From Agelas oroides (taxonomy: Eukaryota > Porifera > Demospongiae > Agelasida > Agelasidae), in the NCBI GenBank assembly GCA_949130485.1, contig OX422193.1, positions 517,501 to 581,500 on the forward strand: a stretch of 64,000 nucleotides of DNA, read 5' to 3'. Shown here piece by piece: positions 3,524 through 46,586 of this stretch. The notes under the pieces were generated by a model. The model did no database searches, was not told the DNA's origin, and worked only from the letters and a program-made list of their open reading frames with translations. A program made the translations under genes and the position numbers. How positions within the stretch are numbered: the stretch's first letter is position 1; each line of letters opens with the position of its first letter.

Positions 3524-3584
3524 ATGAAGACTGATTTGGGGTCTGTTGCTGCAGTACTCCTCCTTGTTGCAGTTATACCTGCAG
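3524..3584 (+). CDS. Gene A exon 1: signal peptide, GC-AG intron donor
   Basis: Encodes [20 protein letters not shown] plus one base (phase 1), a typical cleavable signal peptide. The only donor that joins in frame to the first SRCR exon is CAG|GCAAGT, a GC-AG intron. Gene B has the same donor at 27691/27692, while gene C uses CAG|GTAATG at the equivalent spot. Confidence 0.8.
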
Positions 3585-6500
3585 GCAAGTAGATGTAATT
3601 GTAATGTAACACCACATTCATGGTGGCTCACTACCAGCATAATATTGCAAGTCATTTTTTGCTTAATTGCCTTGGTTTTAAATATTGCAAGTCTCCAGCT
3701 ATTTTAAACCAAGGCAATTAAGCAAAAAATGAGCAATCTACACTGTCATGAAATTAAAAGGTACTTTGAGAAATCTAGCGACTTCCATTACACTCTTTGT
3801 TTTCCAAGCTAGGTAAGTTGAACAGGGCTCAACAAACAGTCGGTTATACATATGTGAGTGTGGTTGGAAGTTTGAAGTGGCATAGGTACAAACAATGACT
3901 CAGAGCAGGTATTTATAAATATTTGATGCATCTATGAAGCTCATGTGAGCCCAATCATTGATGTCATGGAACAATGTTTGATTTATAACTGCCACATGTT
4001 GAATTATTATCCATCTGTTACAAATGTTCCAATTATCCATCAGTTTACTTTGCCTATTGTTGTGTGCTACTTAGTAACATAACTTTTTACCATACACGTT
4101 ATAAATGCAGCTGCCCAGCATTGCACTAATGGAACTGTGCATTTGGTGAATGGACCTCTGGAGAGTGCAGGCAGAGTGGAGATCTGCATCAATGGAGTGT
4201 GGGGAACAGTGTGTGATGATAGCTGGGATAACAATGATGCTAGGGTTGTGTGCAGACAGCTGGGATTTTCTGGATCAGGTACTACTTTGTACAGTGTTAA
4301 GTGTAAAGCTGAGGTAGTTATGCATTGGACCAAAGATCACCATGTGCACACTTGTATATTAAGTAACTGTACCTGGAAAATTAATGAATGTATAAATGGT
4401 GGTTTTCTGTAGCCTTTGTTGCTGTGTCCTCTGCTACATTTGGACAAGGGACTGGCCCAATATTCCTGGATGATGTGAGGTGTACTGGTGCAGAGTCTTC
4501 TCTTCTGAGCTGCAGTCACATTGGAATTGGTATTCATAACTGTGGACATTATGAGGATGCTGGAGTTCTGTGCCCCACATGTAAGTTACATACATGTTTT
4601 TTTTAAGTGTAAGTGCCCATATAAGTAATTGTCATGATAATTTGTTAATAGTACCAATTGAAAGTTAATGTGCTAAATTTAGAAGAGCAGTTATGAACCG
4701 TCCAATTGTGGAAGGATATACCTCTATATTTATACCAAGGCTATTGTCCTCAAAACCGGAGGAAGCAAACTTAGAATGGAAGGGTAAGGACAGCTTCGTT
4801 ATATAATAGTTAGGAGTGTGCACTATGTGTTAGTAAATATGTGTGTTAGCTTGCATGGGGAGTCTGTGGGCATGTTCCCCAATTACCGTCATTATTCTAA
4901 TATAATGGTAGATCCAATCTAGCAGAAGAAATTCAAGTCTTGCAATTTTTGTTAATCCAATTATGCGGAAGGTAGCTGCACTAATTATTTTTGAGTGAAT
5001 CCAATTTAGCGGAAGAGCCGTAGTAGTAGACATCACGAAGCTTTCTTAGCAGACAAAATGGCGAAGTCACAGGCAGAACGAGTGCACCAGGAAGCGTTCT
5101 TATCAAAACAACACTTGTGAAGTCACTGCAGAGGCGTTGTAGTGCACCCAGACGGTGTTCTTATCAAAACAAGTATGGAGAATAGTCACTGGCAGACAGA
5201 ATGATGCTCAGACAATCAAAGTTCTCGGAGCCTATTACACTTCTGGGAAAGCCTATGGTAATTTAGTACTGCAGGCAACACCCTGAGATGAAGAGGCCTC
5301 AGTGCATGGCTAGTGCTTTTCTTGGAAAATATGCTTCCATTACAGTGGTAGATCTAATCCAGCAGAAGAAATTGGGTTCCTGGAAGTTTTATGAATCTAA
5401 TCTAGTGGAAGCCAGATTTAATTTCCTACCGTTCTATTAGAATAATGACCGTAGAGGCTATGAGATTGCTTCTGAGGCCATTTTGTGAGAAACTGAATCT
5501 AAATGAAGGAGGCTAGGGATGGTTAGTAAGGGAAGGAGGAAGGATTTGGTACTTCACAAGTTAAGGAAACTACATCCACCTAATGTGCATTTTATTAACG
5601 GTACTATTTTTAGCGATTATGACCACACTTGCTAAATGCGCTAATTTTAGTAGTTAAAAGTGAAGTATGCTTGTATGACTGCTTTTTACAGCTGCTCAGG
5701 GTTGTAGCAATGGGGCACTTCGGCTGGTTGGTGGACGGTCTTCTAATGAAGGCAGGTTGGAGATCTGCATCAATGGACTGTGGGGGACAGTGTGTGATGG
5801 TGGATGGGATAACAATGATGCAAGAGTTGTGTGCAGACAACTGGGGTTCTCTGTGGGTGTGTCTGGCTCAGGTATTGAAAACATGATAGCTTGTTTCTAC
5901 AACCTACATTCATTATCATGTTACCTTTTTTAGTGACATCAGCACTCTATGGCTACCAACACACTTTTGGACGAGGAACTGGCCCAGTATTTCTATATGA
6001 TCTGAGATGTTCTGGGACAGAGTCATCTCTGCTGAGCTGTAGTCACAGTGGAATTTGGTTTAACTGGTGTTCACATTATTCTGATGCTGGGGTTGTCTGT
6101 CCATGTAGGTTGGATGTGTACTCATGTTTATTAGATGTTCAAGGAATTAATGATGACTGTACCTACTCAGCTAATATATGCACTGATATCAAACTCATTG
6201 GGGTACTTTACGAACAGGTATGGGGCAAAGCCAAACACTTTCCAGCACTTTATATGCTACTTTTCCTGTGAAACATTTCCCACATAATATACACACATTA
6301 TTCATAGGGTGTCAATTTTACAACGAAATAGGAAATACCAGATGGAGCTAGTCTACTTTATTCACAGGGTGCTACTTTTGGTAGATTTTATTGTCCATGC
6401 CACTAGGTACTCATGGTACAGTCCGGCTGATTAATGGTCTCATACCAGAGGAAGGAACAGTGGAAGTGTGTGTGAATGCAGTGTGGAGTAGCGTGTGTCA

Positions 6501-46000: not shown

Positions 46001-46586
46001 GACAGTCCAGTAGGGAAGACTCTCTTCCAGTGCAGGATACACGATCAAGATAAATTGGACCACTTCCCTGACCAAACCTGGCACAACAATAGGAGCTGGA
46101 GTAGACATCTGTATGACATGTAGATCGGAAAGAGAAGCAGGTTCATAATCAAAATTAGAGTTGGAAATTAATCATCCTGCAGGTATCATTCGTACTTGTA
46201 TAGTCATCTACTGTAAAAAAAATTGTGTAGGAATATAGAACCAATAACGCACATGCTCCACTGTCCACTTCAAAGCCCAGCTGTCTGCAAACCACACGAG
46301 CATCACTGGAGTCCCACCAGTCATCACACACGGTCCCCCACACTTTTCCAATGCACACTTCCACCCTCCCCTCCCTCTCGTTTGACCCTCCAACTAGTCG
46401 AACAGCTCCATAGTAACTGCAAGACTCCTGACCAGCTGTGTCATATAAAGAGAACAATGTAGCTACTTACATACAGGTGTTCACTTAATAGACCAGTAGC
46501 TATCCCTTTAGTTTGACACTGTAAACATTACCTGCTGGTACACTGAAGCTGAACACAAGGACGACTACAATTGGAATCACTTTCAT
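39091..46586 (-). CDS. Gene C: SRCR(7)-Ig(4)-SEA-like transmembrane receptor
   Basis: Predicted 1501 aa from 22 exons, 5' to 3': 46586-46532, 46435-46253, 46108-45929, 45765-45601, 45352-45176, 45043-44873, 44692-44510, 44343-44185, 43970-43803, 43580-43407, 43208-43044, 42968-42798, 42651-42492, 42431-42217, 42134-41973, 41830-41543, 41475-41113, 41005-40568, 40499-40236, 40006-39951, 39864-39428, 39262-39091 (4506 nt, no internal stop). Domains by residue: signal 1-18 ([18 protein letters not shown]); SRCR1-7 about 19-829; Ig1-4 about 830-1280; linker; SEA-like and TM to about 1444; tail to 1501. Intron 1 has a normal GT donor. The donor of exon 2 (AT|GTGCGT) is the least certain junction. 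It has one SRCR domain fewer than A and B, and an extra 60 nt phase 2 intron splits the SRCR6-7 junction exon. Confidence 0.85.
40236..41830 (-). CDS. Gene C exons 16-19: four Ig-like domains
   Basis: 41830-41543 Ig1 ([11 protein letters not shown] ... RYYCWVYY), 41475-41113 Ig2 ([10 protein letters not shown] ... AAGVYHVQF ... KLCEEE), 41005-40568 Ig3 ([10 protein letters not shown] ... HAGKYEALL ... FGCPND), 40499-40236 Ig4 ([11 protein letters not shown] ... FGRYVCLV). Canonical cysteines are present in Ig1 and Ig4 only. Ig3 has an added cysteine near its start (EECPVNRGY) that A and B do not have; gene D shares it. Confidence 0.85.
41973..46435 (-). CDS. Gene C exons 2-15: seven SRCR domains
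   Basis: SRCR1 46435-45929, SRCR2 45765-45176, SRCR3 45043-44510, SRCR4 44343-43803, SRCR5 43580-43044, SRCR6 42968-42492 and into 42431, SRCR7 to 41973. The motifs are as in gene A (GRVEVC, WGTVCDD, VVCRQLG, FGxGSGP). SRCR6 is the counterpart of SRCR7 in A/B: it reads [10 protein letters not shown] with the usual cysteine missing, and the 3' half has only LQQC and VASVIC. SRCR5 ([25 protein letters not shown]) is the most divergent domain. Confidence 0.85.

Follow-up and report, generated by a model that had tools for sequence, protein, structure and literature searches.

Which receptors does a sponge encode where SRCR domains, Ig domains and a tyrosine-rich tail follow one another in a single gene, and what might such receptors do? 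The question is raised by a stretch of 64,000 nucleotides (the window) from Agelas oroides (assembly GCA_949130485.1, contig OX422193.1, positions 517,501 to 581,500 of the forward strand). In this genome, eight or more related genes for predicted cell-surface receptors lie in a cluster: eight gene models, four on each strand, occupy about 169 kb and extend past the window. All eight share one layout, namely a signal peptide, 7-10 SRCR domains, four Ig exons, a linker, a juxtamembrane domain, a transmembrane (TM) segment and a one-exon tail. On balance, we think that they form a family of type I membrane receptors that combines recognition with phosphotyrosine signalling, and that has grown by tandem duplication and the exchange of short tracts. 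The architecture, the recurring exon design, the tail motif, the cluster and a conversion-like tract are observed in the DNA itself.

Cluster, domains and exon design

An earlier inspection of the letters alone (the sequence-only reading) had proposed a clustered, duplicating family of ordered multi-domain receptors, with three complete genes and one partial gene in the window, and the eight models bear this out: A, B and C are complete, and D, partial in the window, is completed by the flank. The cluster consists of two inverted subfamilies, the A-type (four genes) and the C-type (genes C-F). Profile searches with the joined proteins place both SRCR and Ig above the curated Pfam cut-offs. SRCR reaches 8.4e-182 in A (8 stretches, 591.2 bits) and 1.5e-151 in C (7 stretches, 494.2 bits), for a cut-off of 26.1; Ig_3 reaches 1.6e-18 in A (4 stretches, 67.4 bits) and 2.9e-17 in C (3 stretches, 63.4 bits), for a cut-off of 30. 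The four Ig domains that had been predicted are also recovered singly: each of the four Ig exons, in A as in C, has an Ig-family match at E<=1, the weakest being Ig3 (0.0074 and 0.022 in A and C, single Ig3 exons lying below the curated cut-off). The SRCR array was likewise correctly recognised, but the number of its domains ranges from 7 to 10 over the cluster and is not fixed at eight.

The array has a fixed and a labile part. Six membrane-proximal SRCR positions correspond one-to-one between the subfamilies, each forming an eight-gene clade with support of 0.92-1.0, and the distal tip varies from 1 to 4 SRCR. With approximate segment ends, 56 of 63 SRCR segments hold the 6-8 cysteines expected in this superfamily; five hold 9, D_3 holds 5 and the half-missing F_3 holds 3. 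The structures nearest to SRCR1 of A are M130/CD163, PIT54, CD5L, CD6 and DMBT1. The aggregation receptor of Geodia combines SRCR with SCR repeats; no Sushi/SCR family was listed for A or C (Pfam, E<=1), and that receptor type was rejected.

Exon boundaries were predicted from splice consensus, reading frame and likeness to paralogs rather than taken from cDNA. The joined frames have no internal stop in any of the eight models, partly by construction, because exon choice avoided stops. Some splice sites are weak: the SRCR7-SRCR8 junction scores -1.8 (donor) and -2.3 (acceptor) in C, its donor scores -4.0 in D and E, and F reads through it; the donor of C at 45601 scores -3.2, and the model of F lacks the second half of the third SRCR. 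A and C have 16 of 22 exon junctions in common within 2 columns, 12 of them exactly, for a mean of 1.04 and a maximum of 6 in 2000 random placements (junctions not being fully independent). The SRCR-Ig design looks old and maintained. The features are as follows.

3524-19637, plus strand: gene A, 23 exons, 1599 amino acids, 8 SRCR
3524-3584, plus: gene A signal-peptide exon, phase 1 donor
4111-16079, plus: gene A SRCR1 to SRCR8 in 15 exons, two for most domains
15653-15760, plus: gene A SRCR8 tract, gene-conversion-like, 93-99% identical to C-F
16162-16440, 16962-17351, 17437-17835 and 17917-18177, plus: gene A Ig1, Ig2, Ig3 and Ig4 exons
18359-18411, plus: gene A linker exon, entered in phase 1 and left in phase 0
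18718-19121, plus: gene A juxtamembrane CSCN domain and TM
19457-19637, plus: gene A tail exon, NTAY...VYEVPT-stop
27631-38494, plus: gene B, 23 exons, 1582 amino acids, 8 SRCR
27631-27691, 28225-35032 and 35100-36827, plus: gene B signal peptide, 8 SRCR and Ig1-4
37046-37098, 37378-37772 and 38314-38494, plus: gene B linker, juxtamembrane domain with TM, and tail (YELPK-stop)
46586-39091, minus: gene C, 22 exons, 1487 amino acids, 7 SRCR
46586-46532, 46435-41973 and 41830-40236, minus: gene C signal peptide, 7 SRCR and Ig1-4
40006-39951, 39864-39428 and 39262-39091, minus: gene C linker, juxtamembrane domain with stalk and TM, and tail (YETPK-stop)
72728-60938 with flank, minus: gene D, 1533 amino acids, 7 SRCR, 3' part (60938-64000) in the window
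64100-63948 and 63837-62184, minus: gene D last SRCR exon, crossing the window edge, and Ig1-4
62056-62001, 61863-61310 and 61133-60938, minus: gene D linker, juxtamembrane domain with Pro-rich stalk and TM, and tail (YDEP, YDQPM-stop)
57878-59292, minus: relic 3' module below gene D; its juxtamembrane domain and TM have open frames, its tail contains stops
53755-53886, minus: orphan tail exon, open, YDQPL-stop

Tail, juxtamembrane domain and paralogs

The tyrosine-rich YxxP tail anticipated by the sequence-only reading is borne out. In 12 of 12 aligned tails, including those of two SRCR-less paralogs, an NxxY is followed by [VI]Y[ED]xP, which a single residue separates from the stop, and the YxxP sits in the sole well-conserved part of the tail; three orphan or relic tails deviate, having no such YxxP motif. 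A cytoplasmic YxxP is the feature expected of Crk/Nck-type SH2 ligands. The recognition of pYxxP by the CRK SH2 domain is described as pre-metazoan, with crka present in Amphimedon (cited part of PMC5043372). We rejected membership in the class of receptors with immunoreceptor tyrosine-based inhibitory or activation motifs (ITIM, ITAM), neither being conserved across the 12 tails: an ITAM is found in none of them, and the ITIM consensus in 3, one of which belongs to a cluster gene.

The juxtamembrane domain carries a pattern, C-x-C-N...C...TA...C, that is invariant in 11 members. It had been called SEA-like, a name that found no profile support: Pfam gave no convincing match, and no SEA family was listed at E<=1 or, in wider-threshold runs, at E<=10, where HMMER filters limit the search by discarding most matches above 0.1. 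An AlphaFold model from the 11 sequences gives the order helix-strand-strand-helix-strand-strand at low confidence (per-residue score, pLDDT, 59.5; predicted template-modelling score, pTM, 0.43). The SEA fold is ferredoxin-like, and the linker exon, if it supplied a first strand, would give a ferredoxin-like element order compatible with SEA. The juxtamembrane exons of E and F (L019, L022) contain Pro-rich stalk repeats such as PVEEPRPTIAPQL, whose number differs between genes, C being short and E longest.

Genome searches with single exons returned 21 places for the juxtamembrane domain, 15 for Ig2 and 17 for Ig3. An A-type member with SRCR, Ig1-4 and the juxtamembrane domain lies at C11:2.355-2.365 Mb (L026), and a C-type member, with 7 SRCR and Ig1-3 within the stretch examined, at C11:2.046-2.056 Mb (L027); search matches suggest a third at C11:2.40 Mb, and fragments of the family lie at C11:2.52 Mb (L029) and C1:28.48 Mb (L028). 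Two genes at C5:11.37-11.39 Mb encode Ig1-4, the juxtamembrane domain, the TM and the tail; in the 20 kb examined they gave no SRCR match, and their signal-peptide exons were not found. The SRCR array is thus a separable part. The two C5 genes are the most divergent paralogs, and the backbone tree sets them apart, at a support of 1.0, from the ten genes that bear SRCR; as it is rooted on them, it is silent on which form came first. At C11:8.668-8.688 Mb, in two loci of opposite orientation (L030, L031), the juxtamembrane domain seen in the cluster lies downstream of Ig exons; with the exons taken singly, 3 of the 4 frames that were tested match Ig, and neither a TM nor a tail was found at these loci. 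Together with the C5 genes, the two loci indicate that the Ig-juxtamembrane chassis exists without SRCR. LTR-type (long terminal repeat) retroelement frames were seen by eye between the two C5 genes (L024, 6232-9899).

Between subfamilies, synonymous divergence (dS) is mostly above 1 or saturated, and non-synonymous divergence (dN) is 0.23-0.85 (exons 4-20). Within subfamilies, the dN/dS of the SRCR regions is 0.36-0.51 (6 A-type pairs) and 0.32-0.47 (6 C-type pairs), and pairwise values fall below 1 in all regions computed, one tail pair excepted; hypervariability is therefore not shown, and purifying selection acts on most joined regions. A 108-bp tract of SRCR8 (34602-34709 in B, about 42423-42317 in C) is 93-99% identical between the two subfamilies, as gene conversion would leave it, and may have been exchanged in this way. 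Two inverted repeats were also noted, one of 661 bp between genes A and B (96.7% identical, 23873-24533 / 26183-25523), perhaps the arms of a mobile element, and one of 125 bp (99.2% identical, 56770-56894 / 57580-57456).

Among the neighbours, exons of the Cathepsin family (PF00112) lie just upstream of the cluster on the minus strand (G000:C11:396556-435501, L009 7700-8080); one, with a stop within the matched stretch, reads CSYAFAAIGALEG, which we take to be a silicatein-like signature with Ser/Tyr replacing Cys/Trp, and is the chief sequence evidence that the source is a siliceous sponge. An intronless alpha-arrestin-like frame lies at 50783-51784 on the minus strand (Arrestin_N 7.5e-25, Arrestin_C 3.3e-22).

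Comparison with known receptors

The joining of SRCR with Ig is not new, and the domain order of this cluster is a variant. Both occur together in sponge proteins (Ryu 2016, PMC4772301; Pita 2018, PMC6208332, in two other sponges), where SRCR is found with Ig or FnIII, a likeness that concerns co-occurrence, order, counts, TM and tail not being given in the cited parts, and a 2020 review restates the combination for invertebrates (PMC7308585, cited part). The mammalian Fc receptor-like scavenger FCRLS also unites type B SRCR with Ig, but its Ig is FCR-like and the cited part of the paper mentions neither an SRCR array nor the juxtamembrane domain (PMC7940838); the likeness is probably convergent. 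The sequence-only reading, which knew of no vertebrate receptor with this exact order, may be right on that point. We found no paper with this order in a search that left out most subscription journals and all supplements, and do not claim its absence from print.

As a functional analogue, bovine WC1, the group B SRCR co-receptors on gamma-delta T cells, fits best (PMC2681482, PMC8356672, cited parts here and below). It too is multigene, with SRCR arrays (6 or 11), a TM and tail tyrosines; its distal Domain 1 is the most variable, and a hybrid role as pattern-recognition receptor and co-receptor is described. In contrast to the cluster, WC1 has one exon per SRCR rather than mostly two and a tail of four to six exons rather than one, and no Ig is described (PMC2681482). 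We rejected membership in the WC1/CD163 receptors, because in the cluster genes four Ig exons separate the SRCR array from the TM. In Amphimedon, SRCR clusters are also tandem, with seven-cysteine SRCRs split over exons, mostly three per domain rather than two as here; the cited part details a cluster with two, four or six SRCR per gene without mention of Ig, and Ig is not among the five main SRCR partners (EGF_CA, cEGF, FXa_inhibition, kinase, astacin) (Peng 2024, PMC10855680).

Proposed mechanism and its rivals

We infer recognition coupled to phosphotyrosine signalling as the best explanation, and with it surface display, ligand binding, the kinase, the adaptors and the outcome. The array of six fixed positions and a labile tip would bind a surface ligand, microbial or self, held off the membrane by a single-pass stalk of four Ig and the juxtamembrane domain. 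Clustering of receptors could lead to tail phosphorylation by a Src/Abl-type kinase, after which the C-terminal [VI]Y[ED]xP would recruit a Crk/Nck-type SH2 adaptor and NxxY a phosphotyrosine-binding (PTB)-type or endocytic adaptor, their coupling leading to actin change, uptake or adhesion. The genes would multiply by tandem duplication within two inverted subfamilies, exchanging short tracts.

Could the ectodomain instead recognise its own counterpart, identical or allelic, on an adjacent cell, with the tail signalling acceptance or rejection? Hydractinia Alr, a cluster of immunoglobulin superfamily type I allorecognition receptors of demonstrated polymorphism, has tyrosine tails as here, but no SRCR. 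Such allorecognition or homotypic adhesion would suit the clustered tandem copies, the conversion-like tract, the variable stalk repeats of C-F and the loci where several Ig exons accompany this juxtamembrane domain; a mean dN/dS below 1 (in one assembly) and the lack of a conserved ITIM or ITAM argue against it, and we regard it as unlikely. We give no better chance to a scavenger or endocytic receptor for feeding or clearance, with a tail serving mainly in sorting: the names of the structures closest to SRCR1, such as M130/CD163, are those of scavenger receptors, and NxxY could act as a sorting signal, but the strongest constraint on the tail takes in the C-terminal YxxP, and we know of no sorting signal of that type. 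That separate SRCR and Ig genes alternate and were wrongly joined is very improbable, despite the weak splice sites and the phase and frames partly imposed by the modelling, given the identical order in eight clustered genes of two subfamilies at near-saturated dS, and given that in the four A-type genes, the ones searched internally, signal-peptide queries match strongly (E<=1e-4) at the gene starts and nowhere else.

The strongest of the new points are the array of six fixed positions plus tip, the chassis that lacks SRCR and the NxxY/YxxP module at the C-terminus. One might speculate, very tentatively, that a WC1-like recognition locus arose independently in an early-branching animal. An SRCR array with replaceable tip would have been grafted onto a conserved Ig-juxtamembrane-YxxP chassis, which this genome also carries without SRCR; duplication, and gene conversion from one inverted subfamily to the other, would have diversified the locus, and Crk-type signalling would serve it in distinguishing self or symbionts from others. 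Sponges are reported to have hundreds of SRCR genes, and according to a review most of what is said of their function comes from expression studies (PMC7308585, cited part). The family provides a defined series of receptors whose tail motif can be tested, whose array divides into fixed and labile SRCR and whose SRCR-less paralogs can serve as controls, and a compact locus where allelic diversity is measurable. It would supply specific molecules for asking how a sponge cell tells microbe, symbiont or neighbour.
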